From positions 434,001 to 498,000 of the forward strand of contig NZ_BLJO01000003.1 of NCBI RefSeq assembly GCF_009932555.1: a DNA stretch of 64,000 bases. The letters run 5' to 3'. Source of the DNA: Steroidobacter agaridevorans (lineage in GTDB: Bacteria > Pseudomonadota > Gammaproteobacteria > Steroidobacterales > Steroidobacteraceae). A program made the translations under genes and the position numbers. Positions within the stretch are counted from its first letter, which is position 1. Each line of letters opens with the position of its first letter. The notes below the pieces were generated by a model. That model made no database searches and was not told the origin of the DNA. It saw only the letters and a list, made by a program, of their open reading frames with translations. Below are positions 31,944 through 47,018 of this stretch, in pieces.

Positions 31944-33989
31944 TTACAACGTCTTCATATACTCGATGAGGGCCTTGCGCTCGTTGTCCGTGAGCACGGA
32001 GTTGAACGTGTGGCCGCCATTGCCCTGGCCGAACATATAGCTGTTATAGATCTTGCGCTCTTCGATGTCCGTGTTCGTGATGGTCGGCGGGAACAGCACG
32101 TTCCAGGCCAGGATCACGTTGCCGTACAGGTTGGTCAGCAAGGCGTCGTACCACGACAGCAGCAGATCGTCCTGCGGATCGCAGCGCAGATACTGCGATG
32201 GCAGCGGGTCCAGGAGCGACGGGCGCTTGCACTGGACCACGTCATACTTCCAACCCACTTTCGTTGTGTCGAAGGCCGCCATGCTGGTGTCGTAACCCAT
32301 GATAGCGCGACCGGTCTGATCCCAGCGCGGCGTTTTGGATTTGCGCTTCCAAAGCGGCTTGCGATCCGCGGGCTTCAGAAGTTCCCAGAGATTCGGCACC
32401 GAGCCGTTGTGCATATACGGCGCGGTCGCCCAGACGCCGTAGAGCGGCGGAGCCAGGTAGCCGAGCTCGCGATTGCCGCGAAGATCCGAGCGGTTTTGCG
32501 GGCCGCAATCGTTGGCCGTGCCGGCGGTGGTCGGGTAGCCGAAGAAATTATTGGCGCCCGCGACCTGCACGGCTTCGTTGTTGGTCTCCTGCCGGACCAC
32601 GTCCGTCTGGATGATCCGCTGCGGAGTGATATAGGAGGCCATGCCCTCGAGCGCAGGGGTAGCAAGGAAGGTCGGATCGTTCACGTAACGTGGCGCATAC
32701 GCACCATGGCAACTCGCGCACGAGCCGTTGCCTTCACTCGGCTTGGGCACCGGGTTGTTGCGGTTCGAGGCCCACAGATTGAGCGTATGAAACAACACCG
32801 CACCTTCTTCGGCGAGCGTGGTATTGACCGCCGCTGGATACGCAGGCGCCTTCAGGGCTTCGACCCACGTATTCGCCTCCGGTCCGTGCGCGCGCATCCA
32901 CGTTTGCCCGGCTTCGGAAAGCGGGCCACCGAGCGAGCCGAACAGACCGAACGCGGGCGTGTAGAACACCATGTCGACGCGCGGAGCATCCATTGGGAAT
33001 ACGCCGTCGACGAACTTCACCGGGCGATGGCCCATGTTCCACCACGCCGGTGTGTCCATGGAGGCCGTCGAGCCGGAGGCGAGCACGCCGAGCGCGGTCT
33101 CGATCGATATCAAACCTTCATCGGGAAACAGGAAGGCGAGGTTGATGTCACTCGCGTTGTTTGTTCCGCGGGTTCGCGTCAGGTTCGCGAGGGACGCGAG
33201 CGAAGGCAAATATCCAAGCGGCACGGCATCGCGCAGGAGCAGGTGCAGGTCCTGGAGACTGCTGCCGCTTCCCGGAGTCTGCACGCCATTCGCAGATCCG
33301 CTGTGACACGCATGGCAGGTAATGCCGATGCGTCCACTCCACGAGCCGTCGGGATTGCGCAGCTGTGTGAACATTTCCGGCAAGCGGCCGGTGCCGCCAT
33401 TGGTCCGGTTCGGATCTTCCAAGGGTTTGGGATAGGGATTGCGTCCCGTGCCGAACACCGAGCCATAACGCTCGGCGACCAGCTCGTCGAAGTTATCCGG
33501 ACGCAGCAGGAAGCCATCCCAGCTCACCCACAACGAGTTGTATTGAGCGGCAGTGAGCGTGGCTGCGCCGAACAACGATTCGACCGTGGTCGGATCGTTG
33601 CCCGTGAAGAGTGCGGCGACCGTGCGCGAACCGGTGTCGAGCAAGCCATCGCCACGATAGAAACGCTGGCGCAATTCGCCGCAGGTCTTTGGATGACCTG
33701 CTTCTTTAACTGCCACTGGATCGGTGTGGCAGTCCTTCCAGAACGCGTTGAAAGCGACCGCACGCCCGGTGCCGATGCCAGGCTTGACCAGCGATCGCGG
33801 ATCCGGCGGCAAGAGTGCGGCATCGGTCTTGCCTTCGCACCAGTCCCAGAGTTGCGAGCCGCCGCGGCTGCTCTTGATGAGGTCCGTTGCAGCTTGAGCG
33901 CCGGTCGCGAGACCGGCGGACAAACTCAGGACCATAAGAATTGAAGCGCGCGGCACCTTGCTGCGCGCCCGGTGTTGCTCTGATCTCAT
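31944..33989 (-). CDS. RoxA/RoxB-like dihaem c-type cytochrome oxygenase
   Basis: Exported dihaem protein of 681 aa with a signal peptide ending about residue 33 (LSAGLATGAQA). The two haem sites are C225-H-A-C-H229 and C424-A-S-C-H428, 199 residues apart, the same spacing I recall for rubber oxygenase RoxA (191 and 390). Shared landmarks include MDTPAWWNMGHRPVKFVDG and APPLYGVWATAPYMHNGSV. RoxA and RoxB cleave poly(cis-1,4-isoprene) with O2 outside the cell. Cleavage of rubber by this protein is inferred; another polyisoprenoid is possible, and so is a different dihaem oxidase. ATG 33989 has AGGGGGA 5 nt upstream. It is the third gene of an operon with the molybdenum hydroxylase, 43 nt after its small subunit. 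Confidence 0.82.
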   Translation of the reverse strand: MRSEQHRARSKVPRASILMVLSLSAGLATGAQAATDLIKSSRGGSQLWDWCEGKTDAALLPPDPRSLVKPGIGTGRAVAFNAFWKDCHTDPVAVKEAGHPKTCGELRQRFYRGDGLLDTGSRTVAALFTGNDPTTVESLFGAATLTAAQYNSLWVSWDGFLLRPDNFDELVAERYGSVFGTGRNPYPKPLEDPNRTNGGTGRLPEMFTQLRNPDGSWSGRIGITCHACHSGSANGVQTPGSGSSLQDLHLLLRDAVPLGYLPSLASLANLTRTRGTNNASDINLAFLFPDEGLISIETALGVLASGSTASMDTPAWWNMGHRPVKFVDGVFPMDAPRVDMVFYTPAFGLFGSLGGPLSEAGQTWMRAHGPEANTWVEALKAPAYPAAVNTTLAEEGAVLFHTLNLWASNRNNPVPKPSEGNGSCASCHGAYAPRYVNDPTFLATPALEGMASYITPQRIIQTDVVRQETNNEAVQVAGANNFFGYPTTAGTANDCGPQNRSDLRGNRELGYLAPPLYGVWATAPYMHNGSVPNLWELLKPADRKPLWKRKSKTPRWDQTGRAIMGYDTSMAAFDTTKVGWKYDVVQCKRPSLLDPLPSQYLRCDPQDDLLLSWYDALLTNLYGNVILAWNVLFPPTITNTDIEERKIYNSYMFGQGNGGHTFNSVLTDNERKALIEYMKTL

Positions 33990-34032
33990 TGGATCCCCCT
34001 TGGTTCGCCTCTGAACCGAGACTAGTTGTCGA

Positions 34033-34503
34033 TCATCTTGATCCGCTCGCGGCCGCAGCCCGTTTGATCGCAGCCCGAATGCGCACATACGTGCCACAGC
34101 GACAAACGTTCTCCGACATCGCAGCATCGATCTGCGCGTCCGTTGGATTCGAGTGCTGCTCGAGCAGCCGAACTGCAGTCATGATCTGGCCCGGCTGACA
34201 GAACCCGCATTGCGCGACATCTTCATCGATCCACGCTTGTTGAACCGGATGCAGCACGCCGCCGTTCGCGAGTCCCTCGATCGTGGTGACCGGTTGAGCG
34301 CCGATGCTCTGGATCGGCACGATGCAGGGTCGCGCGACGTTGTCGCCGATGTGACTGGTACACGCGCCGCAGATGCCTACGCCGCAACCGTACTTGGGAC
34401 CAGTGATCCCCAGCAGATCACGCAGCACATACAACAGCGGCATGTCCGCCGGCGCGTCGACGACGCGTTCTTCACCATTCACCGTCAAGGTGTAAACGGG
34501 CAT
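34033..34503 (-). CDS. [2Fe-2S] small subunit of xanthine-oxidase-family dehydrogenase (IorA/OxiA-like)
   Basis: Iron-sulfur subunit of 156 aa. An N-terminal plant-type [2Fe-2S] site (YGCGVGICGACTSHI) and a C-terminal helical domain with the second cluster (QCGFCQPGQI and CRCGTYVRI) give the normal two-cluster layout. It passes electrons from the molybdenum subunit encoded upstream. The ATG overlaps the large-subunit stop by 1 nt (TGATG), so translation is coupled. Similar subunits occur in isoquinoline 1-oxidoreductase and in the OxiAB enzyme near lcp in Streptomyces sp. K30. Confidence 0.93.
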   Translation of the reverse strand: MPVYTLTVNGEERVVDAPADMPLLYVLRDLLGITGPKYGCGVGICGACTSHIGDNVARPCIVPIQSIGAQPVTTIEGLANGGVLHPVQQAWIDEDVAQCGFCQPGQIMTAVRLLEQHSNPTDAQIDAAMSENVCRCGTYVRIRAAIKRAAAASGSR

Positions 34504-36707
34504 CAGGCGAACTCCTGAATCGGAAAGCGACGCGGCCGCGTGCCGGTAGCGCGGGCATAAGCATTGACACAAGCGGCAGCGGCCGCGGTGATGCCGAGTT
34601 CGCCAGCTCCACCGGGCTGCGCTCCAGCTTCTGCCGGAAAGACATGCACCTCGGTTGTGATCGGCGAGTGGTTCATGCGCGACCAGAGAAAGTCACCGAA
34701 GCTGCCTTCCCGGATCCGGCCGTCGTCGAGGTGATTGCCGGCACGAAACATCGAAGACCAGGCATCGATCAACGAGCCCTGCATTTGAGCCGACAGGCCG
34801 CTGACGTTGACCGGCACGCCGACATCGACGGCGCAGTACGCTTTCGACAAGCGAGGCTCCGGACCGGTGGTGTCGATCTCGACGAGATAAGCGACCGCCG
34901 AGCGATACTCCGCGTGGATGGCAATGCCTTGCGCGTGCCCCGGTGGCATCGCGCGTCCCCAGGAACCGGCCGATGCGACGTGCCGCAAACAACGCTCGGC
35001 CGCCGCGGAGTCCAGATGACGCAAACGAAAGTCGACTTCGTCGTAACCTCGCGCCCGCGCCATCTCATCGATGAAGATCTCATTGGCCGCGGTCATGACG
35101 CCGGAGTACACCGAACGCCAGCTGCCGGTGGGCACATTGAACTCTCGCTCCACCAGCTTGGTGCTGGTGCTGCCGAAACGATAGGGCAGCGAGATCATGG
35201 TGACGAAGCCCACTTGATTGAACAGGTCGGGCACTACGTTGACGCCCGCGGCGCTCAGCGCGTCGCCCAGGCCGTGCCTGAAGTCGTTTCTCGCCGCCGC
35301 GACGTGATGCTCGAAGGAGAGCGTCGCACCGGCCAGCCACGATGCGCGGATCGCGCAACGAGACATCGGCCGGAATCGGCCATGTCGCATATCGTCATTG
35401 CGTGTCCACATCAGTTTGACCGGCCTGCCCAGCGCTTTGGAGACCAACGCCGCTTCGATGGCGACCTCGCCAAACAGGCGCCGGCCAAAGGAGCCGCCCG
35501 CAAAAGGCACGTGGATCTTCACTTTCGATGCTGGAATGCCGATGGCTTGCGCAATCTCCGCCGCGATGTAGTTGGGCGATTGAGACGCGTACCAGATCTC
35601 GGCGGACTGGCCGCGAACATCGGCGACCGCAGCCATGACTTCCATCATTGCGTGGGCGAGATACGGAAACTCATAAGTGGCGGTGAGCGACCCAACCAGG
35701 GGCAGCACCGGCGTGAGCGGCGTGTTGATCTGTTGCAGAGTGCTGCGGACGTTGGCGTCGGAGAGCCCGCGAACGGGGCCGGGGCGCCAGGTGATTTGAA
35801 GGGCATCGCGCGCATCGAACGCCTGTTTGAATGTTCGTGCAGTGACCGCGATTCCGTTTGGAAGGGGCACGATGCCGAGCACGCCTGGCATGGATGAGGC
35901 TACGCTGCCATTCCATGAAAGTACGGCGCCTTTGATGTCTGGAGCGCGAGCCACCACAGTCGGCATCGCGCCTGGGACATCGACATCCAACGTATATTTC
36001 TGAGCGCCTGTGACGATGTCACGCGCGTTCTTGCGAGGACGCGCAGTGCCCACGACCTTGTATTGACTGATCGACTTCGGCGTGACGGAAATCAGCGGCA
36101 CCAACACCAGCGCCGCATCCGCACTGAGCTCGCCATAGGTTGCGCTGCGCCCATCCGTGGCAATCACTTTCGATTGCGAAGTCCTCAAGCTGCTCGCACT
36201 GACATTCCAGCGGCGTGCCGCGGCGGTAACGAGGCGCGCGCGGGCTTGAGCGCTCAAACTGCGGACCGGGCCCCAAAGTGCGCGGATCGCAGCGGAGTTG
36301 CCCGTGATGGAAAACGGCCGATCGGCGCGGCGGTCGCTGAGTACTACGTCGGTTCTTGCATAGTCCGCGTCCAGTTCGTCAGCCACCAACATTGCGAATG
36401 CGGTAGCGATGCCTTGTCCTTTATCCAGTCGTGGCAGCTCGAAACGAACGCGGTTGTCGGCCGTGACTTCGAGCACCAGGTTGTTGGCGTAGGGCGTTTC
36501 GGCCAGCCGAATGACATCGGCAAAGTCGAGGATCTCGCCCAGCTCGGGCAATGAGACTGACGCCTCGGCGTCGTCGGCGCCGACGAACGCGCCGCCCAAG
36601 ACCAGCGTCGCGGACCCGCCGAGGGTGTATTGAAGGAAGCGGCGACGAGTGGTGCTCGACTCGGGTGTGGTGTCGTGAGGTGCGTTTCGATTCAAACGAT
36701 GCGACAC
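34503..36707 (-). CDS. Molybdopterin-binding large subunit, isoquinoline 1-oxidoreductase/OxiB-like, Tat-exported
   Basis: Molybdenum hydroxylase large subunit of about 734 aa. A Tat signal (STTRRRFLQYTLGGSATLVL) exports the folded complex with its small subunit. Molybdopterin-binding stretches are visible (FAGGSFGRRLFGEVAIEA, TGSWRSVYSG), as is the active-site Glu motif GGAGELGI. Family members oxidise N-heterocycles or aldehydes. The best start is GTG 36707: AGGGGG lies 6 nt upstream and the N-terminus becomes short before the Tat motif, while an upstream in-frame start at 36890 would overlap the divergent receptor gene. First gene of a three-gene operon with the small subunit and RoxA-like protein. 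It may oxidise aldehydes produced by RoxA. Confidence 0.92.
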   Translation of the reverse strand: MSHRLNRNAPHDTTPESSTTRRRFLQYTLGGSATLVLGGAFVGADDAEASVSLPELGEILDFADVIRLAETPYANNLVLEVTADNRVRFELPRLDKGQGIATAFAMLVADELDADYARTDVVLSDRRADRPFSITGNSAAIRALWGPVRSLSAQARARLVTAAARRWNVSASSLRTSQSKVIATDGRSATYGELSADAALVLVPLISVTPKSISQYKVVGTARPRKNARDIVTGAQKYTLDVDVPGAMPTVVARAPDIKGAVLSWNGSVASSMPGVLGIVPLPNGIAVTARTFKQAFDARDALQITWRPGPVRGLSDANVRSTLQQINTPLTPVLPLVGSLTATYEFPYLAHAMMEVMAAVADVRGQSAEIWYASQSPNYIAAEIAQAIGIPASKVKIHVPFAGGSFGRRLFGEVAIEAALVSKALGRPVKLMWTRNDDMRHGRFRPMSRCAIRASWLAGATLSFEHHVAAARNDFRHGLGDALSAAGVNVVPDLFNQVGFVTMISLPYRFGSTSTKLVEREFNVPTGSWRSVYSGVMTAANEIFIDEMARARGYDEVDFRLRHLDSAAAERCLRHVASAGSWGRAMPPGHAQGIAIHAEYRSAVAYLVEIDTTGPEPRLSKAYCAVDVGVPVNVSGLSAQMQGSLIDAWSSMFRAGNHLDDGRIREGSFGDFLWSRMNHSPITTEVHVFPAEAGAQPGGAGELGITAAAAACVNAYARATGTRPRRFPIQEFA

Positions 36708-36878
36708 GATTGGCCCCCTGAGCTCCAGCGCAATGGCGGCTGTTTCCAAAGTTCCCTGCCGCGCCACCCATCCTAGCGAGGTCCCCGCCGGCTGACTGCT
36801 ATCAAGGTCAACAGCTGTGCGCCGGCCGCCCGAGCTGCCAACGTAGGACGCGACCCATACAAAGACGACCCTATAAAG

Positions 36879-39344
36879 ATGAACATTCACGGCGCCAGCC
36901 GCGGGGGAGTAATGCGCAGAGGAATCGGAGTGGGGATGAGTTTCGCGTCGCTGTTGTGGCTGGCTGCGTTCAGCAGGGCCGCCGGCGCTCAGGAATCGAC
37001 GGTGGAGTCGGGCGGAACGCTCGAGGAAATCATGGTCACCGCGCAGCGGCGTGCGGAATCGATCAACGATGTCGGCCTGGCGATCCAGGCGTTCGATGCC
37101 TCGAAGCTCGAAGCATTGCGGGTCGATAGCGTCGCCGACCTGACCAGCGTGGTCCCGAGCTTCACGGTGTCGCAGAGCTATCAGGGCGTGCCGACCTATA
37201 CGATGCGCGGCATCGGCTTCAATACGATCAATCTCTCCGCCACTTCAACCGTCGGCACCTATGTGGATGAGGTCGCCTACGCCTATCCCATCATGAATAC
37301 CGGGCCGCTCATGGACCTGGAGCGCGTCGAAGTGCTGAAAGGACCGCAGGGAACGCTGTACGGTCGCAATACCACGGCGGGCCTGATCAACTTCATCACG
37401 GCGCGGCCGACCGATGCCTTCGCCGCGGCGGTCAGCGCCGATGTGGGCAACTATCAAAGTTATAACGTCGGCGGCTATATCTCCGGACCGCTGTCGGAAC
37501 GCGTTCAGGCGAGAATTGCCGTTCGAAGCGAGAACAGTGGCGAAGGCTGGCAGCGCAGCGCGAGCCGCGGCGAGCGGCTGGGCGAGATATCGAAACATGG
37601 CGTGCGTGCGTCGTTGGCCATCCAGCCCGGCGACAGCACTCAAATCGATTTCTCGGCGACCTATTGGCGCAACGAATCCGACACCGTCGCGGGGCAGGGC
37701 ATCGGCTTCACCCCGGCCACCGCGAACAGCCCGTTCAACGCGCCGGGCCTGGTGAACTTCATCCGTAGCAATCCGCCGGACGATGCGACGGATGCCGACT
37801 GGGCGCCCGAATCCGTGCGCTCGACCGATATCGGCGTTGGCGTAGGACTGGCTGGACCGCTGCGCGAGAACAATCCTTTCACGGGTTTGAAGCTGCGCAT
37901 CGACCAGGATCTTTCCGACAGCGTCAAGCTGGTCTCCTTGTCGAGCTACAACGAGTTCGAGCGCGAGGCGCTGTTCGACTGGAGCGGCGCGCCCTATGAA
38001 ATCCTGGTGCAGAAAGCGACCGGCAAGATCCGTTCGCTGGCCGAGGATCTGCACATCGAAGGCGCGACCGAGAACGTCAACTGGCTGGTCGGCGCCTACT
38101 ACGCGCAGGACGAGATTCTGGATTCCAATCGGACGCTGCTCGGTCAGAACGCCAACGTGTCGCTGATCCGGACGGTGGGATTGCCGCTGCTCGGGACACC
38201 GTTCAATTGTTGTGGCTACACCGCGGCCGACCTGGCGCGGTCGTTTCGCACCTATGAAGATGTGGGCAACATCGATACGGAAACCTGGAGCGTCTTCACC
38301 AACGCCGGCTGGCGCTTGAACGATCTGTTCAAACTCAACGCGGGGGTGCGCTACACGGAAGATCGCCAGGACTATCGCGGCTGCTCCCGCGACTTCAATG
38401 GCAGCATGCTGCCGAACGTGAACGTGGTGAATCGTGCGTTGTTTCTACAGAACTACGGCATCCTGAGCGCGCCGATCTCCGCCGGCCAGTGCCACACGTT
38501 CGATCCAGTCACCGGCACGTTCCATGAAATCGTCTCGACGCTCGATGAGAGCAACGTGGCCTGGCGCGCCTCGCTCGATTTCACCCCGGCGGATAGCACG
38601 CTGATCTACGCGTCGGTGTCGCGTGGCGCGAAGGCGGGCACGACGCCGATCAATCCTGCGAACATCGCGCGACAGAACGCGCCTGTGAAACAGGAGTTGC
38701 TGACGGCCTATGAGCTCGGCCTGAAGGCAACGGGAGCGGATCGCACCCTGCAGACCAATCTCGCGGCTTTCTACTACGACTACGAGGACAAGCAGATCGG
38801 CACGTATTTCGCCGATCCGATCTACACGGCGCTCACTCGCCTCGACAACGTGCCGAAATCCCAAGCGTATGGTGTGGAAGGCGATGTGACGTGGGAGCCC
38901 GTGAAGGGCATCACGATCGCAGCCACCGCGCTCTGGCTGCAGACGGAAGTGCAGGACTATATGGGCACGAACGCCGCCGGGCAGCCGCAGGACTATGATG
39001 GCGCCGAGTTCATCTACAGCCCGGAACTCCAGGGCAGTCTCTCGCTGCTCTACCTGCGTCCGCTCCGCAATGGCCTGAATCTCGAGATGACTTTGAACGG
39101 CCGCTATCAAAGCAAGTCGAACACCATCTTCGAAGATATCGATCTCTACAAGATTCCTGCCTACGGTGTTGCGAACGTCAGCATCGGACTGCGAGGCGCG
39201 GAGGATCGCTGGTCCTTCACCCTTTGGTCCCGCAACGTGCTGGACAAATACTATTGGACCGCCGTGGCGAGCAACGCAAACGTGGTCGTCCGATTCCCCA
39301 GCCCGCCGCGGACCTATGGCGCGACCATCGGGCTGAAGTTCTGA
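36879..39344 (+). CDS. TonB-dependent receptor, lipid/hydrophobe-type
   Basis: Outer-membrane receptor of 821 aa. Signal peptide, then TonB box LEEIMVTAQRRAESINDVG. The plug carries DLERVEVLKGPQGTLYGRNTTAGLIN, the form common in receptors of sphingomonads and steroid or terpenoid degraders. The barrel ends in Phe (YGATIGLKF). ATG 36879 is used, but ATG 36912 with GGGGGAG just upstream, beginning MRRGIGVGMSFASLL, is a good alternative. It is divergent from the molybdenum hydroxylase operon, with 171 bp between starts, so it may import oxidised cleavage products. Substrate not proven. Confidence 0.92.
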   Translation: MNIHGASRGGVMRRGIGVGMSFASLLWLAAFSRAAGAQESTVESGGTLEEIMVTAQRRAESINDVGLAIQAFDASKLEALRVDSVADLTSVVPSFTVSQSYQGVPTYTMRGIGFNTINLSATSTVGTYVDEVAYAYPIMNTGPLMDLERVEVLKGPQGTLYGRNTTAGLINFITARPTDAFAAAVSADVGNYQSYNVGGYISGPLSERVQARIAVRSENSGEGWQRSASRGERLGEISKHGVRASLAIQPGDSTQIDFSATYWRNESDTVAGQGIGFTPATANSPFNAPGLVNFIRSNPPDDATDADWAPESVRSTDIGVGVGLAGPLRENNPFTGLKLRIDQDLSDSVKLVSLSSYNEFEREALFDWSGAPYEILVQKATGKIRSLAEDLHIEGATENVNWLVGAYYAQDEILDSNRTLLGQNANVSLIRTVGLPLLGTPFNCCGYTAADLARSFRTYEDVGNIDTETWSVFTNAGWRLNDLFKLNAGVRYTEDRQDYRGCSRDFNGSMLPNVNVVNRALFLQNYGILSAPISAGQCHTFDPVTGTFHEIVSTLDESNVAWRASLDFTPADSTLIYASVSRGAKAGTTPINPANIARQNAPVKQELLTAYELGLKATGADRTLQTNLAAFYYDYEDKQIGTYFADPIYTALTRLDNVPKSQAYGVEGDVTWEPVKGITIAATALWLQTEVQDYMGTNAAGQPQDYDGAEFIYSPELQGSLSLLYLRPLRNGLNLEMTLNGRYQSKSNTIFEDIDLYKIPAYGVANVSIGLRGAEDRWSFTLWSRNVLDKYYWTAVASNANVVVRFPSPPRTYGATIGLKF

Positions 39345-39406
39345 CCGCCAGGGATGGTGGAAATGCTGGCAATGCAGGAGCAATTGGCAGCGGACCGTGC
39401 GCAGCG

Positions 39407-40153
39407 TTACAAACGCATGCTGATGAAGCCGAGAGCGGTCGCGTGATGCACGATGCGAATCCGACCGCTCTCGCCGAGTTTGTCGCCCGCTTTCTTCAGA
39501 TGAAAGCGCACCGTGGGAATGGCGACATCGAGGATGATGGCGATCTCCTCGTCGGTCTTGCCGGCGGCGGCGAGTTTCAGACATTGGATTTCACGGCGGG
39601 TGAGCCGGTAGGAACGAATGCTCGGCTCGCCATACATCGCGGCGTTGCAGGCGGAAATGAACCGCAACGCCAGCACGTGCAGATCCGCTGCATGTTTGTC
39701 GAACAGTTCGCGCACGTTGTCGCGCGGTTGGTCGGTCGCCCAGACGACCGCGCCAATGACGCTGCCCGGCAGATGAATCGGCGCGACGATGGCGCCGCGA
39801 ATGCTCAACGTCATGCGGTTCTTCTGCCGTTCCAGCTCCGGGGCGATGTGCAGCGTGCGCCATCCGCCGATTTCGCCGCGATCGTAATAGAACGGTTCGG
39901 CGGTCCAGCGAATGATGGCGACGATGGCGTTTTCGAGCGCGAGGTCCGGCTGTAGCCAATATTCGCGGGCATCCGTGGCGAACTCGAACAGCGTGGTGAC
40001 GGGGATGTTCCGGCCCACCGTCGCGGGACGGGCGCTACTGATGTCGGCCCAGGTGGCGATCATCGGCAAGCCGATGGCGCGGCCGCGTGCGGCGATCTCA
40101 CGCGCCGTGTCGATGATCCCAGGCTCGAACGAGCTCGATGGCATCGCGTTCAT
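39407..40153 (-). CDS. LuxR-type regulator with degenerate autoinducer-binding-like domain
   Basis: Regulator of 248 aa. A LuxR/FixJ-type helix-turn-helix fills the C-terminus (YRLTRREIQCLKLAAAGKTD, then EIAIILDVAIPTVRFHLKKAGDKL). The N-terminal 165 residues have the size and pattern of an autoinducer-binding domain, but the canonical Trp/Tyr/Asp signal contacts are not all where expected. No luxI synthase is in the window, so it is a solo that may sense another ligand. GGGGGA lies 6 nt before ATG 40153. It sits between the receptor and the oxygenase-ligase pair and may regulate them. Confidence 0.88.
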   Translation of the reverse strand: MNAMPSSSFEPGIIDTAREIAARGRAIGLPMIATWADISSARPATVGRNIPVTTLFEFATDAREYWLQPDLALENAIVAIIRWTAEPFYYDRGEIGGWRTLHIAPELERQKNRMTLSIRGAIVAPIHLPGSVIGAVVWATDQPRDNVRELFDKHAADLHVLALRFISACNAAMYGEPSIRSYRLTRREIQCLKLAAAGKTDEEIAIILDVAIPTVRFHLKKAGDKLGESGRIRIVHHATALGFISMRL

Positions 40154-40332
40154 TGCAGTCCCCCGACCGGATCATGCCGTTCGGGGGCCGGTCCGAAAGT
40201 CGTCCGTTCCGACGATCTGTGGGCCGCCGGGGCCGGGCAGAGCCCCCTGTTTGGCTCGATAGTATTCAAAGCCCGGGCCGGGCGGGTAAACGATAGGGAC
40301 GTGCGTGTTCACCGTTGAATGAAGGAAAGCAA

Positions 40333-41250
40333 ATGAGTAACGAGCCCCGGGCCCCGCAGCGACGACCGGTTCCGCAAGTGGATTTTCTGAATCCGAGCGG
40401 CGCACCCGCCTTGTACCCGCCCGATTCGCTCGCCTGGCAGGTGTTCAAGAATCCGATCTCGCTGTTCATCGGCGGCATTACCGCCGTGCTGCTGGAGCTG
40501 GCCGAGGAACGGGTGCGCACCGGCGTCTGGGAACATTCGATCTTTCCCACCGATCCGCTGATCCGGATGCAGCGGACCGGGCTGATGACTCACGTGAGTG
40601 TCTATGCGCCGGTCGCGGTGGCGGAGAAGCTGATCAGGGGCGTGGTCGCGATGCATGCGCGCGTTGAGGGAACGACGCCGAAGGGGACGCCGTACCGGGC
40701 CAACGATCCCGAGTTGTTGAATTGGGTCCAGTGCACGGTGAGTTATGGCTTCATGGAAGCGTATGCCGCTTACTGCCGACCCTTATCGGATGCGCAACGG
40801 GATCATTTCTACCGGGAATCGATGGCGTCGGCCCGGCTGTTTCTCGCGCACGGGGCGCCGCAATCCAAGGCCGAGCAACAGCAACAGTTCGAACGCATGC
40901 AGCCCCACCTGGAGGCGCATCCCATCATTCTGCAGTTTCTGGAGATCGTGCTGCGGACGTCCGCGCTGCCGCTGTTTCTCAAGCCGCTGCAATCGACTAT
41001 GGTGCGAGCCGGGATCCATCTCCTGCCAGCATGGCTGATCGAGCGGCTCGGTCTGCAAGGCAGGCAATGGCGCCTGAAGCCCTGGGAACAGCGACTGTTG
41101 AGAACGCTCGGCGCGCTGTTCGAGCGAGTGCCCATTCCCAACGCTGCGCCGACGCTGGCGAGCCGGCGAATGGGCTTGCCGGCCAACTATCTCTATAAAC
41201 GATTCACGGCGACCACGGGGGACGGATCGATGGCGAGCGCTCAGTCGTGA
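40333..41250 (+). CDS. DUF2236 / MpaB-like (Lcp-superfamily) oxygenase
   Basis: Cytoplasmic protein of 305 aa without a signal peptide. The sequence (SLFIGGITAVLLELAEERVRTGVWEH, then RTGLMTHVSVYAPVAVAEKL and PYRANDPELLNWVQCTVSYGFMEAY) fits the DUF2236 family, which includes the haem oxygenase MpaB and the latex-clearing protein Lcp. A haem-dependent oxidative cleavage of a prenyl or other lipid chain is plausible but not proven. AAGGA 7 nt before ATG 40333 fixes the start. Its stop overlaps the GTG of the ligase gene, so the two are translated together. Confidence 0.85.
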   Translation: MSNEPRAPQRRPVPQVDFLNPSGAPALYPPDSLAWQVFKNPISLFIGGITAVLLELAEERVRTGVWEHSIFPTDPLIRMQRTGLMTHVSVYAPVAVAEKLIRGVVAMHARVEGTTPKGTPYRANDPELLNWVQCTVSYGFMEAYAAYCRPLSDAQRDHFYRESMASARLFLAHGAPQSKAEQQQQFERMQPHLEAHPIILQFLEIVLRTSALPLFLKPLQSTMVRAGIHLLPAWLIERLGLQGRQWRLKPWEQRLLRTLGALFERVPIPNAAPTLASRRMGLPANYLYKRFTATTGDGSMASAQS

Positions 41251-42839
41251 CCGATCGAGTCGACTATGACGCCATGCCCGCGTTGGGCGATATCGTGCGT
41301 TACCACGCTCGGTATCGTCCCGAGCGCATCGCTGTTTCCTTTGAGGGCCACGTCACTTCGTGGGGCGAGCTGGAGCGGGCCAGCAATCGGGTGACCAATG
41401 CGCTCAGCGCCGCAGGCTGCCGGCCGGCGGACCGCATCGCCTACATCGGCAAGGGCACCGATGAGTTTTTCGAGCTCATGTTTGGCGCGGCCAAGGCCGG
41501 CGTGGTCCTGGTGCCGGTGCAGTGGCGGCTCGCGCTCGCCGAGATGCAACAGATTCTGCTGGATGCCGATGTGAGAATGGTGTTCGTCGGCAGCGATCAG
41601 TTCGACAAGCTCGACGCCTTCCGGCAGGCGCTGTCCAGCGACGTAAACCTGATCGCCATGGAGCGAGGTCACGCGGACCTCGCACGCTACGCTGAGTGGC
41701 GCGATGCCATGCCGGCGTCAGATGCCGGGCTGGCGGTCGATCCGGCATCGGTGGTGATACAGCTGTACACCTCGGGCACCACCGGCGTTCCCAAGGGCGT
41801 GATGCTCAGCCATCGAAACATTCTGAGCGGCCGGCGCGACAGCATGCGCGCGCAAATGGAATGGAACGAATGGCGGGAAGACGACGTGAACCTGGTCGCG
41901 CTGCCGGTCGGCCACGTCGGAGGCATCGCTTGGGCCATCGTTGGCTTCTTCAGCGGTGCGAAAACCATCGTGCTGCGGGAGTTCAATCCTGCGCAGGTGC
42001 TCGATGCGATCGAACACGAAGGCGTCTCGCGGCTGTTCGTCGTGCCCACAGCGTTGCATCAGCTGCTGTTGCAGCCTCGCGTGAGGCAGATCGACTATCG
42101 ACGGCTGCGTCACATTCTCTACGGCGCATCGCCCATCGCAATCGATCTGCTGCGCGAGGCGACGCAGGTCTTCGGCTGCGGCTTTTGTCAGCAGTACGGA
42201 ATGACAGAGACGGCCGGGACGATTGTTTTTCTGCCTCCCGAGGATCACATCGCTGGCGGCAGTCCGCGGATGCGCGCTGCTGGCAAAGCGATGCCGGGCG
42301 TGGAGATTCGCGTCGTCGATGCTCATAGCCGCGAACCGCTCGCCGCGGGTCAGGTGGGCGAAGTCGAAACACGCTCGGTCGCCAATATGGTCGGCTACTG
42401 GCGATGGCCGGCGGCCACGGCGCAGATCATCGATGAATCCGGTTGGTTGCGCACGGGCGATGCAGGCTACCTGGACGAAGACGGATATTTATATATCCAC
42501 GATCGCTTCAAGGACATGATCGTGTCGGGCGCGGAAAACATCTATCCCGCTGAAGTCGAGAACGCGATCTACGGACATCCAGCCGTGCAGGAAGTGGCGG
42601 TCATCGGCGTGCCGGATGAGAAATGGGGCGAGGCGGTCAAAGCCATCGTCGTTGCCAAGGCGGACGTGAGCGCCGATGCCGCCGACATCATCGCTTTTGC
42701 ACGCACTCGCATCGCTGCATTCAAGACGCCGAAGTCCGTCGAGTTCGTAACGGCGCTGCCCAAAGGGCCTTCGGGAAAGATTCTGCGTCGTGTGTTGCGC
42801 GAACCTTATTGGGAGGGACGCGAGCGTCGAGTGAATTGA
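41247..42839 (+). CDS. Acyl-CoA synthetase / AMP-dependent ligase
   Basis: ANL-superfamily ligase of 530 aa that activates a carboxylic acid through an acyl-AMP to its CoA thioester. The P-loop-like core YTSGTTGVPKGVMLSH and the motifs YGMTETAG, GWLRTGDAGYLDEDGYLYIHDR and ENIYPAEVEN are intact, with the catalytic Lys region PKGPSGKILRR near the end. The GTG start overlaps the DUF2236 stop by 4 nt (GTGA), showing coupling. It probably activates the acid derived from the cleavage product for beta-oxidation. Chain-length preference is unknown. Confidence 0.94.
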   Translation: MTDRVDYDAMPALGDIVRYHARYRPERIAVSFEGHVTSWGELERASNRVTNALSAAGCRPADRIAYIGKGTDEFFELMFGAAKAGVVLVPVQWRLALAEMQQILLDADVRMVFVGSDQFDKLDAFRQALSSDVNLIAMERGHADLARYAEWRDAMPASDAGLAVDPASVVIQLYTSGTTGVPKGVMLSHRNILSGRRDSMRAQMEWNEWREDDVNLVALPVGHVGGIAWAIVGFFSGAKTIVLREFNPAQVLDAIEHEGVSRLFVVPTALHQLLLQPRVRQIDYRRLRHILYGASPIAIDLLREATQVFGCGFCQQYGMTETAGTIVFLPPEDHIAGGSPRMRAAGKAMPGVEIRVVDAHSREPLAAGQVGEVETRSVANMVGYWRWPAATAQIIDESGWLRTGDAGYLDEDGYLYIHDRFKDMIVSGAENIYPAEVENAIYGHPAVQEVAVIGVPDEKWGEAVKAIVVAKADVSADAADIIAFARTRIAAFKTPKSVEFVTALPKGPSGKILRRVLREPYWEGRERRVN

Positions 42840-42851
42840 GCCGCCGATCTC

Positions 42852-45800
42852 TTAGCCAGCGGCGGCTGCCGGCGAAATCGCGGCGGCGCCTTTAATGACG
42901 AAGCGCGCGAGTACTTGTTCGAGCTTGGCCGCGTCGAGCGGCTTGGTGAGATAGTCGTCCATGCCCGCGGCGAGGCAGCGTTCGAGCGTGCCGACCATGG
43001 CGTCGGCGGTCAAGGCGACGATGGGTACACGCTCGCCGGGGCGTTCTCGAGCACGAATGCGCTGACTGGCCTCGAGACCGTCCATGATGGGCATTTGCAT
43101 ATCCATCAGCACGAAATCGTAGGTCGAACGCGCCAGCGCTTCGACCGCTTTCGCACCATCGTCCACGATATCGACTTCGCAGCCCAATCGCTCGAGGAAC
43201 CGACGCGCGACGCGTTGATTGACCGCGTTGTCCTCAGCAACGAGCACTCGTGCGCTGACGACAGGCCGGGCTTTCTCAACGATAGGAGCAGGGTCGGCCG
43301 AGGCGGGCTGATCATGCGAAGCCGCGGGGCGCAGGGCGCGATCGATGCAATCGAGCATGGCGCTGGTGCGTACCGGCTTGGTCAAGTAGCCGAAGAAGGA
43401 ACCGGCGGTCTCGCACTGAATGTCGCCGCTACGGTCGACTGGGGTGAGCAGCACCAACGGCAGGCCCGAAAGATCGACCGAGCCGCCGATCTCTGCGCCA
43501 AGCGCAATGCCGTCGAGTTGCGGCAGGTGATGATCGATCAAGACGACGTCGAAGCGCGCCTCTGAGGTTCGCAACATTTCCATGGCTCGCGTGCGATCGC
43601 TCGCCAAACCAACGTCAAAGCCGGCGTGTCGCAATCGATCCGCAATCGCCTCGCGCGCCTGTTCATTGTCGTCGACGATCAGAACGCGGCCGGTGCGATT
43701 GACGACCGCCGCCGCCGATTCGGCAACGACCGGCAGCGGCAGGCTGAACCAGAAGGTCGAGCCCTGGCCTTCGGTGCTGTTGGCGCCGATCGTACCGCCC
43801 ATCATTTCCACCAGCTTGCGCACGATGGACAAGCCCAGGCCCGTGCCGCCGAAGCGGCGCGTCGTCGACGTGTCGGCTTGCGTGAACGGCATGAACAGAT
43901 GATCGAGCGCGGAGGCGGCGATGCCGATGCCAGTGTCTTTCACAGAGAAGGTGACAGTGCCCGCCGCGTCCCGACTGACATCGAGCACGACTTGGCCTTG
44001 CTGCGTGAATTTGACTGCGTTGCCGACCAGGTTGAGCAAACATTGTCGGATGCGCATCGGATCGCCGAGCACACGCTTCGGCACATCGTGCCGTACGTGC
44101 ACGATCAACCGCAGATTCTTTGCCGCGGCCTGGAACGCCATGAGGGCGCCGGCGTCGTCCACCAGGTCGCGCACCTCGAACTCCAGGCGCTCGATGTCGA
44201 GCTTGCCGGCCTCGATCTTCGAAAAGTCCAGAATGTCGTTCAAGATGGCCAGCAGCGAGCCGGCGCTGGCGCGGAGCGTTTCGGCGTAGTCGCGTTGTGA
44301 GCGGTCGAGCGGCGTGTCGAGCAGCAATCCGGCCATGCCGATGATGCCGTTCATCGGTGTGCGGATCTCGTGGCTCATGTTGGCCAGGAAATGCGACTTT
44401 GCCTGCGTCGCCAGTTCGGCGTCTTCCTTCGCTGCTGCCAGCGCGCGTGTTCGCTCGGCGACCAGCGCCTCCAGGCGCTGAGCATTGCGGTTGAGTTGGC
44501 CGACTCGCAGTCGATACAGCAAGGCTGCCAATCCCAGCGCCCCGCCGATGCACAGGACCGCGAACCAGGTTGTTTGATAGAAGTGCGGCAGCAACGTGAA
44601 GCGCAGCATCGCGCCGGTGTCGTTCCAGACGCCGTCGTTGTTGCTGGCGCGTACGTGGAAGGTATATTCGCCGGGTGGCAGCCGCGTGAAGTACGCACTC
44701 CGACGCGAGCCTGCATCCATCCACGTGTCATCGAAGCCTTCCAGACGGTAATGGAACTGCACCCGCTCCGGCACCGCCAGGCTGAGCGCGGTGTACTGCA
44801 CTTCCCATTGGGTCGCGCCGGCCTGTACTCGCACGTTCTGGCCGAGCGAGATGGGTTGGCCATCGACGATCAGTCCTTCGACGACCACCGGCGGCGCTAT
44901 GGGATTGCCGGGAATTTCGCCCGGATCGACTCGCACGATGCCACGAATGGTCGGCAGCCACAGCGAGCCGTCCGGCATCAGCGATCCGGGGCGCGTGTTG
45001 CCGCCATTGAACTCGGAAGTGCGCAGCCCGTCGGCGATGCCGTAGCTGCGATAGATGAGCGTCGGCGACTCTCCGGAAGCGAACGTTTCCAGATCGTGCT
45101 CGGCGATCGCGAACAGACCGCGATTGGTGGTGATCCAATAGGTGTCACGCCGATCGCGCAGAATTTGTAGCACGGTCTCTGTCTGCGGACCGGCGCCACG
45201 GGCGAGCGAGATCGCCTTGCCGTCTCGAATGCGTCCGAGCCCGCCGGTCGTGCCTAGCCACAGCCCGCCGCGTCCGTCGTCGTGCATGGATAACACACGG
45301 TTGCCGGGCAAGCCGTCGGCGGTCGTGTAGGCGGTGACTGCGCCGTCTGCAAACATATAGAAGGCGTGCGCATCCGTGCCGATCCACAGTCGACGCTGCG
45401 CATCCTCGTGAAGAGCGCCGCTGGTGATCGCGCCGAGTTGCGCGATCGCCGCCGGAGTTGGCAGGTGCGTTCCGTTCTCGAAGATATCGATGCTCTTGTC
45501 GGTCGCCATGACGACGCGGCCCTGCGAGTCTTCGATGATCGCCTTGACCAGATTGCCGGACAGCCCGGTGCGCTCGCTGTATTCGGTGATCTTGCCCTCG
45601 TGATATCGGTAAGCGCCCCGGCCCTGAGTGCCGACCCACAGGGCGCCGCTGCGATCCTCGAGCACGGTGCGCACGCGGACGTTCTCGATGCCGAAGCGCG
45701 GCGAGAGATATTCGAACTTGCCGTCGACGTAGTGGCTCAGGCCCGCATCGGTGCCGATCCACGCGTCCTGCCGCCGGCCGGGTGCGATGGTCCAGGCGAG

Positions 45801-46817
45801 GTTGCCGCGCAAGCCTTCGTCGAGCCCGAACGATGTGAACTTGCCATCGCGCAGACGTAACAAGCCGCCGCCGTAGGAGCCGGCCCAAAGGCTGCCTTCG
45901 CGATCTTCCAGCAAGGCGCGCACATCGTTGGAGGGTATGGCGCCCGAACGCAGCGATGTGAGCTGGGCGCCGATCAGCCGAAACAGACCGCCGCCCGTGG
46001 TCGCGATCCACAGGCTCCCGTCTCGATCGCGTCGTAGCACGCGCACGGTGCCGCCGATCTCTCGACTCAAGGGCACACGCTGGAAGCTGCTCTCGGTGCG
46101 TTTGTATAACTGGCCTTCCTCGGTGCCGATCCAGATCGAGCCGTCTTGATCTTCGAGCAGCGCGCTGGCGTTCACCGACGCTGGGATCGGGGCAGGCAGC
46201 GGCGCATAGCTCGATTGACGATTATCGATGCGCAATATTCCCTGCAGCGCCGTCGCTACCCAGAGCGTGCCGCTTCGATCCTCGAGCACGGCGCGGATGC
46301 GGCCGGTCGGCCCGTGGCTGCTCAAGTGCACCGGCTCGACGGCGCCGCCGTGCTCGCGAAACAAGCCTTGCTCAGTGGCTATCCAAACATCGCCGCGCTC
46401 ATCTTCGATCATGTCGTAGATGGAAGCGGTCGCGAGCGGTGTCTGGTCGCCGACGGTTTCGAACTGCTCGGCGCGTAGCACTGCGGGGCCCGCCGAGGTG
46501 CCGATCCACAAGCGATCGTGACTATCGGCGAGCAGCGCCGTGATCAAGTTACTGCCGAGCTGTGGCGTGCTGCGCCGATCGAACACGACGAAGCGCACGC
46601 CGTCGAAACGGGCCAGACCTTCCTGCGTGCCCACCCATAAATAGCCATCGCGAGTCTGCGCCAGCGACATTGGCGAGTTCTGCGGCAATCCCTTGTCGAG
46701 CTGCCAGCTGTCGAGCACGTATTGGCTCGGCATCTTGCTCGGCGTCAGGGACAATGCCGGCCCCGGCATCAGGCAAAGGACTAGCCATGCCAGAGCCCGC
46801 AGGATCTGGCGCGACAT
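42852..46817 (-). CDS. Hybrid two-component sensor histidine kinase with beta-propeller sensor and two receiver domains
   Basis: Membrane sensor of about 1321 aa. A signal-anchor is followed by a periplasmic sensor made of Reg_prop beta-propeller repeats ([17 protein letters not shown] and many similar). Then come a Y_Y_Y domain (about 675-740), a transmembrane helix (749-772), HisKA with H816 ([15 protein letters not shown]), an ATPase domain ([18 protein letters not shown]), receiver 1 (D1095 in VLIDHHLPQ) and receiver 2 (D1239 in VLMDMQMP). The sensor resembles hybrid two-component systems that sense oligosaccharides. There is no DNA-binding domain, so an output regulator must be elsewhere. 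The start is uncertain; ATG 46817 ([19 protein letters not shown]) is preceded by GAGCGGG, with in-frame ATGs at 46838 and 46862. Confidence 0.92.
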
Positions 46818-46972
46818 AAGTCGCCCGCTCGCGTCCATTCGTGTGAGTGCAGGGGAGTGCATCGCACGAAGTATCGGCTTGCCCGCCACGGGCCTAAGGA
46901 ACCAATCAGTCGTTTCGTCGGCGGCGTCGGATCGATCGCTTGAAAGTGTGAAGCCCGTCTGCCCGGCAAGCG

Positions 46973-47004
46973 GGCGCGCCGTGAGGCGGGGCCCACGGCG
47001 CGCC
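46973..47004. terminator. Strong GC hairpin after pectate lyase gene
   Basis: GGCGCGCCGTG (46973-46983) and CACGGCGCGCC (46994-47004) form an 11-bp perfect stem with a 10-nt loop, starting 15 nt after the pectate lyase stop. A second, weaker hairpin follows at about 46953-46975. It lies between the pectate lyase gene and the sensor kinase start and probably ends the former's transcript. Confidence 0.6.
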
Positions 47005-47018
47005 AAAACATTCCAATC

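Follow-up and report, generated by a model that had tools for sequence, protein, structure and literature searches.

A roxB gene arrayed with OxiAB-type hydroxylase genes in Steroidobacter agaridevorans: probable part of a polyisoprene catabolic system split over two loci

Introduction

A locus in Steroidobacter agaridevorans, in which the gene of a Rox-type rubber oxygenase follows the two genes of a molybdenum hydroxylase, raises the question of how a Gram-negative bacterium could dispose of the products of natural rubber cleavage. The locus lies at positions 31944 to 42839 of the window, by which we mean the whole 64,000-nucleotide stretch analysed here (assembly GCF_009932555.1, contig NZ_BLJO01000003.1, positions 434,001 to 498,000). 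It has been reported that nearly all sequenced Gram-negative bacteria with roxA also have roxB, and that RoxB cuts the polymer internally and RoxA trims it to the C15 keto-aldehyde ODTD (PMC6311187). The ODTD aldehyde is toxic, and enzymes of the OxiAB kind are thought to detoxify the aldehydes released by rubber cleavage. Published work regards OxiAB as probably responsible for oxidising oligo-isoprene aldehydes (PMC9782182, PMC3426405), the wording for Streptomyces K30 being "thought" or "possible". For strain 35Y, the ODTD aldehyde oxidase was reported as unknown, and the accessible part of the genome paper assigns no importer (PMC5979037).

A preliminary description had read this region as a candidate polyisoprenoid degradation locus. 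All of the genes that it named were recovered at or near the positions it had assigned to them, and their families matched above curated cut-offs in a Pfam scan, some scans being run on the longer open reading frame (ORF) that begins at the first start. The evidence presented below suggests that this Steroidobacter-group bacterium probably has a catabolic system for polyisoprene (natural rubber) that is split over two loci, the present one and a separate roxA locus of the same genome.

Identity of the Rubber Oxygenase

The product of 31944–33989 had been called RoxA-like; it is indeed a rubber oxygenase of the Rox type, with the RoxA-type cytochrome domain PF21419 (E 1.3e-20), but its NCBIfam identity is RoxB and not RoxA. 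It scored 1072 bits against the RoxB equivalog NF050034 (cut-off 900), and RoxA and RoxC were rejected because both scores fell below their own NCBIfam cut-offs (437 bits against 1000 and 572 against 900, respectively). Additionally, CHACH196, CASCH395, the MauG motif PYMH494NGSVP, H627, V294 and F309 were all present, in RoxB35Y numbering, which is obtained by subtracting a 33-residue signal from window protein positions 229, 428, 527, 660, 327 and 342. This set is that of the RoxB35Y column in Table 1 of PMC10837239, the distal-pocket residues of RoxB being kept. In a 29-row tree, which carries a long-branch warning for other rows, the protein grouped with those of Peristeroidobacter, Povalibacter and Minicystis (99/97), apart from three RoxA rows. 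NCBIfam and the tree thus both group the protein with RoxB, among the rubber oxygenases, and by its sequence the window oxygenase is RoxB.

For comparison, 65 Rox loci were collected; 32 short or distant matches (L038–L069) were not counted as RoxB-like, and 28 of the 33 left (L005–L037) were tested for an OxiB-type gene. L005 and L006 were taken to be the genus genomes G205 and G202, with which they share identical match coordinates, and were not counted as extra evidence. Clustered Rox genes were also seen in this material: a Solimonas metagenome-assembled genome (MAG) carries three in tandem (L008, 8074–14115), which are 50%, 68% and 40% identical to the RoxB of the window, Zhongshania marina has three clustered paralogues and a Salinisphaerales MAG has two (L030, L031).

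An OxiAB-Type Hydroxylase Arrayed with roxB

The genes iorB, iorA and roxB form a compact, co-directional array, since the iorA ATG overlaps the iorB TGA and the likely roxB start, an ATG at 33989 with a G-rich ribosome-binding site, lies 43 bp past the iorA stop. The earlier claim of one operon with the hydroxylase holds for these three genes, which form one apparent operon, but not for the TonB receptor, LuxR, DUF2236 and ligase genes, which have other orientations and lie outside it: the receptor gene diverges from the array, the DUF2236 gene diverges from luxR, and the DUF2236 and ligase genes overlap in the same direction.

The hydroxylase carries the Pfam domains Fer2_2 (E 8.5e-32) and MoCoBD_1 (E 8.5e-26), and the sole Protein Data Bank (PDB) match along most of IorB was 8gy3_C, an aldehyde dehydrogenase large subunit. 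At the N-terminus of IorB, TTRRRFLQ is followed by a hydrophobic stretch, and the motif TTRRRFLQYTLGGSATLVLGGAF was judged by eye to be a twin-arginine signal, which has been described as an OxiB feature (PMC9782182). Among the IorB-like plasmid records, of which the best 40 of 478 were listed and nine placed in a tree, the best matches listed came from Streptomyces chartreusis (46% identity), Nonomuraea gerenzanensis (39%) and Variovorax (43% over 71%), the other listed rows showing 30–34%. In Nonomuraea, the gene just upstream of oxiB encodes an Lcp, with 546 bits to LcpK30 (5o1l), and this is therefore a genuine lcp-oxiB-oxiA locus; it provides the only lcp-linked OxiB in the comparison. 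The S. chartreusis locus was rejected as an lcp locus, its upstream gene encoding a flavin adenine dinucleotide (FAD) monooxygenase.

In a tree of 34 IorB proteins, the window IorB fell within a 14-row clade (100/100) together with those of two relatives, six myxobacteria, S. chartreusis, Variovorax and two other proteobacteria, and with the lcp-linked Nonomuraea OxiB, to which it is 40% identical. Seven other IorB paralogues of the same genome and 13 further rows fell outside. The gene order was B→A in all 14 rows of the clade, whereas it was A→B in 19 of the 20 others, the single exception being an own paralogue on contig C11. Moreover, the window IorA showed 53–70% identity to the partners of those B→A clade members that lie outside the genus, compared with 49–59% to the partners of other rows. 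The comparison with OxiAB made in the preliminary description was thus borne out, as the window IorB shares both clade and gene order with an OxiB that adjoins a genuine Lcp. The window hydroxylase is accordingly placed, on sequence grounds, in the OxiAB clade, and it is a candidate ODTD-aldehyde oxidase of Gram-negative rubber degraders.

The possibility that RoxB is a routine third, cytochrome subunit of such hydroxylases was rejected: a same-strand CxxCH ORF (at least 80 aa, less than 400 bp away) adjoins only one of 28 IorAB loci scanned, so that electron transfer from OxiAB to RoxB is without comparative support. Separately, in the source genome roughly 17 kb separate the gene of a distant RoxA-like protein (C4:53453, L004) from that of an A→B IorB paralogue (C4:35973), and the coordinates in the genus genomes G203, G204 and G205 show a similar spacing.

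Co-Occurrence across Genomes

The genus set comprised 14 genomes, 11 of them with at least 90% completeness and at most 5% contamination, and was profiled for RoxB, IorB, the TonB receptor, the DUF2236 protein and a kinase of the APH family encoded at the RoxA locus. RoxB above the cut-off was found in three of the 14, and the other four proteins were found in the same three: IorB at 84% identity or more (at most 38% in the others), DUF2236 with no further match at 1e-5, the receptor orthologue at 76% or more (next best 38%, with E up to 1e-120 and at most 71 candidates scored per genome) and the kinase at 75% or more (next 31%). Two of these genomes coincide with those of Peristeroidobacter agariperforans KA5-B and Povalibacter uvarum. 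The window LuxR is retained in both relatives (97% and 81%), and Povalibacter keeps the full set of seven cluster genes in a rearranged order.

Outside the genus, in the myxobacterial Archangium family (n = 96), RoxB above the cut-off was present in 15 genomes and an OxiB-type gene in 47. All 15 RoxB carriers had both, versus 32 OxiB-positive genomes among the 81 without RoxB (Fisher 5.7e-6, uncorrected for kinship). When any Rox match at 1e-40 was counted, an OxiB-type gene was present in 26 of 33 carriers versus 21 of 63 other genomes, seven Rox carriers being without OxiB. The two genes are found at separate places there, as no iorB homologue was detected within flanks of up to 10 kb around RoxB in those myxobacteria, and no Rox homologue in the six myxobacterial OxiB loci fetched.

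The RoxA Locus and a Shared Dyad

The source genome (8.0 Mb, 26 contigs) encodes a true RoxA on contig C8, at a separate locus, with 1423 bits over 661 residues to RoxA35Y (4b2n). Around roxA lie an operon for the APH kinase, an enoyl-CoA hydratase and a thiolase-like protein (minus strand), and genes for a FadB-type protein, an acyl-CoA dehydrogenase and two proteins of CoA-ligase type (plus strand). Further genes encode a thiolase (minus), a MalT-like regulator of the LuxR family (plus), a second TonB receptor, a zinc alcohol dehydrogenase, a short-chain dehydrogenase/reductase (SDR) and a distal acyl-CoA dehydrogenase. This locus is kept in Peristeroidobacter, and it is also kept in Povalibacter, with roxA moved.

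The APH-fold kinase, which is encoded near acyl-CoA dehydrogenases, matches ACAD11 (105 bits), whose kinase has been related to LvaA of levulinate catabolism (PMC12440821). As read from the structure of ODTD, beta-oxidation would leave a 4-oxopentanoyl (levulinyl) end, and by analogy the kinase may handle this ketone end. An open-access literature search returned no paper linking levulinic acid with polyisoprene and beta-oxidation.

A related arrangement was found in a Polyangia MAG (L027), where about 12 kb hold genes in the order DUF2236, RoxB, acyl-CoA synthetase, SDR, APH kinase, acyl-CoA dehydrogenase, FadB and thiolase. Its RoxB scored 993.7 bits, the DUF2236 protein encoded beside it is 58–61% identical to that of the window (61% by tblastn) and the kinase is 61% identical to that of the RoxA locus; no IorAB was found in 22 kb. 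This arrangement is the strongest sign that the remaining pieces may act together.

The two loci of S. agaridevorans also share a regulatory-type sequence. A dyad of the type TCGTCCGTTCCGACGA, first seen when the window was compared with Povalibacter, lies between luxR and the DUF2236 gene and is conserved in the three genomes. Four sites of the same 16-bp pattern, TCGTCnnWWnnGACGA, occur at the RoxA locus, all 51–108 bp from an ORF start. One precedes roxA by 71 bp, another precedes the second TonB receptor gene by 62 bp, and a third separates the thiolase gene (69 bp away) from that of the MalT-like regulator (108 bp away). The fourth, 51 bp ahead of the thiolase-like operon, overlaps the 3′ end of a conserved 173-aa ORF with no family assigned (L085:15007–15528). 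Four dyads in the 42.4-kb RoxA region compare with one in 400 kb sampled elsewhere in the genome (p 5e-6; 0.002 at the upper 95% bound), these values being indicative because the final form of the pattern was set after the sites had been seen. In the segment L085, two sites were found against 0.01 expected, with none of 200 shuffles reaching two, and in L169, which overlaps L085 and has one site in common with it, three were found against 0.01 expected. At the Povalibacter sites upstream of the thiolase-like operon and of the receptor gene, and at the one separating the thiolase and MalT-like genes, the arms are conserved and the centre differs.

Across 1.77 Mb of other loci nine dyads were detected, namely three before Microbulbifer roxB, four repeats of the RoxA-locus sites and two copies of one site inside an iorB gene. 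A loose scan upstream of the 33 RoxB loci gave five matches, four in Microbulbifer and one, with a different centre, in Nannocystis. The exact dyad was present in three of the four Microbulbifer loci, about 610 bp or less from the RoxB match, and the fourth had a near match (L016, L017, L018, L036); the Microbulbifer roxB flanks examined yielded no homologue of the window LuxR. In the window, a GC-centred variant occurs inside iorB at 36571. The sole background dyad in the 400 kb (C1, L181:17609) precedes an ORF for an enoyl-CoA hydratase by about 360 bp and could be either a regulon member or chance.

With regard to possible regulators, Pfam recognised in the window LuxR protein the GerE domain alone at E of 0.001 or less, with no autoinducer-binding or other recognised sensor domain. 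This protein may not be the sole regulator, since a MalT-like regulator is encoded at the RoxA locus. The latter, a STAND/LuxR protein at about C8:440974–444000 (L169/L195), has dyads on both sides, lies upstream of the second TonB receptor and may be the master regulator.

Other Features of the Locus

The features of the locus are given in Table 1. As the preliminary description had stated, a receptor and a CoA ligase lie alongside: the former has both the plug (PF07715) and the beta-barrel (PF00593) domain, and the latter an AMP-binding domain (E 8.3e-76).

Table 1. Features of the roxB locus, in window coordinates (HTH, helix-turn-helix)
Feature	Position	Strand	Basis
roxB, secreted c-type di-haem rubber oxygenase B, 681 aa	31944..33989	-	NF050034, six RoxB35Y residues, tree; Sec-type signal peptide by eye
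iorA/oxiA-type [2Fe-2S] small subunit, 156 aa	34033..34503	-	Fer2 + Fer2_2 (scan of longer ORF)
iorB/oxiB-type molybdopterin large subunit, ~734 aa, twin-arginine motif	~34503..36707	-	MoCoBD_1/2; OxiB clade 100/100
Footprint CACAGCTGTTGAYCTTGATAGCAGTCAG upstream of the iorB-iorA-roxB array, possible regulatory site	36792..36819	-	exact in three genomes
TonB-dependent outer-membrane receptor, candidate oligo-isoprenoid importer	36879..39344	+	PF00593/PF07715
LuxR-family regulator, GerE HTH	39407..40153	-	PF00196
Dyad TCGTCCGTTCCGACGA in the luxR/DUF2236 divergent promoter, candidate operator	40200..40215	.	kept in three genomes; recurs at RoxA locus and before Microbulbifer roxB
MPAB_Lcp_cat (DUF2236) protein, candidate intracellular haem-b alkene-cleaving oxygenase	40315..41250	+	PF09995 E 1.6e-46
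Acyl-CoA ligase, long-chain type	41247..42839	+	NF004837 572 bits vs cut-off 476

The DUF2236 protein had been described as a member of the Lcp superfamily, which is right as to the family (MPAB_Lcp_cat, 160 bits against a cut-off of 23) and as to R84, T88 and H114, haem-pocket positions invariant with two Lcps. It is nevertheless not an Lcp, because its identity to these two Lcps is 19–20% and no signal peptide was seen by eye; additionally, LcpK30 did not appear among its PDB matches at E up to 1, and it has 311 aa against about 400. MpaB-family relatives have been reported or proposed to cleave alkenes, and Nro1 attacks nitrile rubber (PMC12724181). Because alkene cleavage is reported for MpaB relatives, the three residues are kept and no signal peptide was seen, it can tentatively be supposed, by analogy and with rather less than even confidence, that this protein is a cytoplasmic haem oxygenase making a second C=C cut. 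An AlphaFold model built with four sequences had a mean predicted local distance difference test score (pLDDT) of 39.

The 28-bp footprint upstream of the array is retained in Povalibacter, where iorB no longer faces tonB, as well as in Peristeroidobacter, with zero occurrences expected in shuffles of the window. A scan for sigma-70 promoters found none (shuffle mean 2.3), a terminator scan found 10 (shuffle mean 9.2), and a repeat search of three intergenic stretches found none. Beside the ligase gene, 42852–47006 (minus strand) encodes a large protein that looks, by eye, like a hybrid sensor kinase carrying propeller repeats at its N-terminus, and such a gene is also present at the Peristeroidobacter locus.

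Proposed System

Taken together, these data point to the following scheme. Secreted RoxB would cut polyisoprene internally, to products of C20 and above, and RoxA, encoded elsewhere in the same genome, would trim the products to ODTD. The terminal aldehyde of ODTD would be oxidised to the acid by OxiAB, probably exported by twin-arginine translocation, in the periplasm or outside the cell, and the TonB receptor could carry oligo-isoprenoids over the outer membrane. The CoA ligase would then activate the acid, which the beta-oxidation enzymes of the RoxA locus would degrade, the DUF2236 protein possibly cleaving the remaining double bond inside the cell. A LuxR-type regulator acting at the shared dyad could coordinate both loci.

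A fuller version of this scheme would be a complete two-locus rubber regulon, with TCGTCnnWWnnGACGA as its single operator of LuxR/MalT type. This operator would govern RoxA, the unit of luxR and DUF2236-ligase, two genes or operons of thiolase type, the MalT-like regulator and the second TonB receptor. ODTD would be oxidised by OxiAB outside the cytoplasm, the DUF2236 protein would make a second, intracellular C=C cut, and the methyl-ketone end of ODTD would emerge from beta-oxidation as levulinyl-CoA, to be rescued by the LvaA/ACAD11-like kinase encoded beside RoxA. In this complete form it is doubtful.

Alternative Explanations

Several observations weigh against a two-locus rubber system. 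In S. chartreusis, G299 and the six myxobacteria, genes of the OxiAB clade stand where neither lcp nor rox was seen close by, and RoxB-negative genomes of the Archangium family carry OxiB-type genes as well, as counted above; the clade is therefore not rubber-specific. An OxiB-type gene (at least 47% identity) was present in only eight of the 28 RoxB or RoxB-like genomes tested, and among them it was linked to roxB only in the two Steroidobacter relatives. In view of the genus, Archangium-family and 28-genome counts, OxiAB is a frequent but not obligatory partner of RoxB that also occurs independently of it. The three positive genus genomes may, besides, stem from one inheritance event. As for the dyad, allowing two mismatches gave no significant excess in the window (two against 0.54 expected, with 11 of 100 shuffles reaching two), and the looser form was weakly significant in Povalibacter (L168, two against 0.24 expected; 7 of 200 shuffles), one of these sites (11256) not standing before any gene start seen. 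Finally, the exact dyad was not found in the iorB/tonB intergenic region of the window, and a trio of adjacent genes for LuxR (40% identity), a TonB receptor (65%) and an MpaB/DUF2236 protein (47%) occurs without RoxB on the Novosphingobium aromaticivorans plasmid pNL2 (L123, 4599–8870), no plasmid record in the collection matching RoxB at E 1e-10.

The last two points also favour the alternative that best survives, namely that two unrelated modules stand side by side, iorB-iorA-roxB serving rubber and luxR-tonB-DUF2236-ligase serving to take up and cleave another isoprenoid or terpenoid, with the exact dyad at luxR/DUF2236 and before neither iorB nor tonB. However, the receptor and the DUF2236 protein track RoxB exactly in the 14 genus genomes, the seven genes are still together in the rearranged Povalibacter locus, the DUF2236 gene adjoins roxB in the Polyangia MAG, and the luxR/DUF2236 dyad recurs at roxA and its beta-oxidation genes, so that this explanation is considered unlikely.

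A second alternative is that the main substrate is another unsaturated polyisoprenoid or lipid, such as squalene, a carotenoid, gutta-percha or unsaturated lipids, rubber being at best a side substrate. The substrate range is not readable from sequence, and the accessible part of PMC10837239 describes two RoxC relatives without rubber activity and suggests a lipid role for RoxC. Nevertheless, the window protein is a RoxB with V294 and F309 as in RoxB35Y rather than the F/A pair tabulated there for RoxC, and RoxA is also encoded in the genome; another main substrate is thus quite improbable. The least probable alternative is that IorAB is a general aldehyde or N-heterocycle oxidoreductase hitch-hiking beside roxB, as the many OxiB-type genes without rox or lcp nearby, including those of RoxB-negative myxobacteria, would allow, given that an OxiB-type gene (E of 1e-110 or less, at most two candidates per genome scored) is rare in Pseudomonadota (3 of 398 genomes, including that of the window) yet arrayed with roxB in all three genus genomes that carry it, that it accompanies RoxB in 15 of 15 Archangium-family genomes, and that lcp-oxiB-oxiA of Actinoplanes OR16 was found by reverse-transcription PCR to be co-transcribed on latex (PMC7413915). 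One half of a two-locus rubber system therefore remains the preferred reading of the locus.

Significance and Comparison with Known Systems

For steps left unassigned in 35Y the locus offers concrete candidates, since OxiAB is arrayed with roxB and a TonB receptor gene is linked to them; its putative operator leads toward further pathway genes. All of these can be tested in Peristeroidobacter agariperforans KA5-B and Povalibacter uvarum DSM 26723, two relatives that have the cluster. The locus also reveals that one oxidase clade adjoins two unrelated rubber oxygenases, Lcp and RoxB. In an open-access literature search, neither oxiAB nor a TonB receptor nor an operator was found described in linkage with roxB. 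The oxiAB-roxB link in 35Y may already be drawn in Fig. 3 of PMC11169899, since that figure compares the rubber operons of ten strains including 35Y.

When compared with RoxA and RoxB of 35Y, the window likewise encodes a RoxB equivalog with the RoxB35Y residues, and RoxA is present in the same genome, unlinked. The accessible part of PMC5979037 describes no roxB gene neighbourhood for 35Y, whereas in the window an OxiAB candidate, a receptor and a ligase are linked to roxB. The RoxA-locus kinase recalls the Lva-type and ACAD10/11-type 4-hydroxyacyl-CoA kinase pathways through its resemblance to ACAD11, the likeness to LvaA being by way of ACAD11 only. The DUF2236 protein shares with MpaB and Nro1 the catalytic-domain family and the haem-pocket R, T and H, with 311 aa against 323 in Nro1; Nro1 is, however, reported to be membrane-bound, whereas no signal or anchor was seen by eye in the window protein, and the two are likened by description and not by alignment.

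The closest parallel is the lcp-oxiB-oxiA operon of Streptomyces K30, Actinoplanes OR16 and Dactylosporangium AC04546, which, like the window, combines a rubber oxygenase gene with a B→A hydroxylase pair. A CoA ligase gene and an MpaB-family gene are also found near the rubber oxygenase both in the window and in AC04842, where, according to a figure legend, they lie near lcp genes. In the lcp operons, however, a haem-b Lcp comes first in the array, whereas in the window a di-haem c-type RoxB comes last, the host is Gram-negative and a TonB receptor is present. Judged by its genes, the arrangement is thus the lcp-oxiAB type realised with RoxB in a Gram-negative bacterium.

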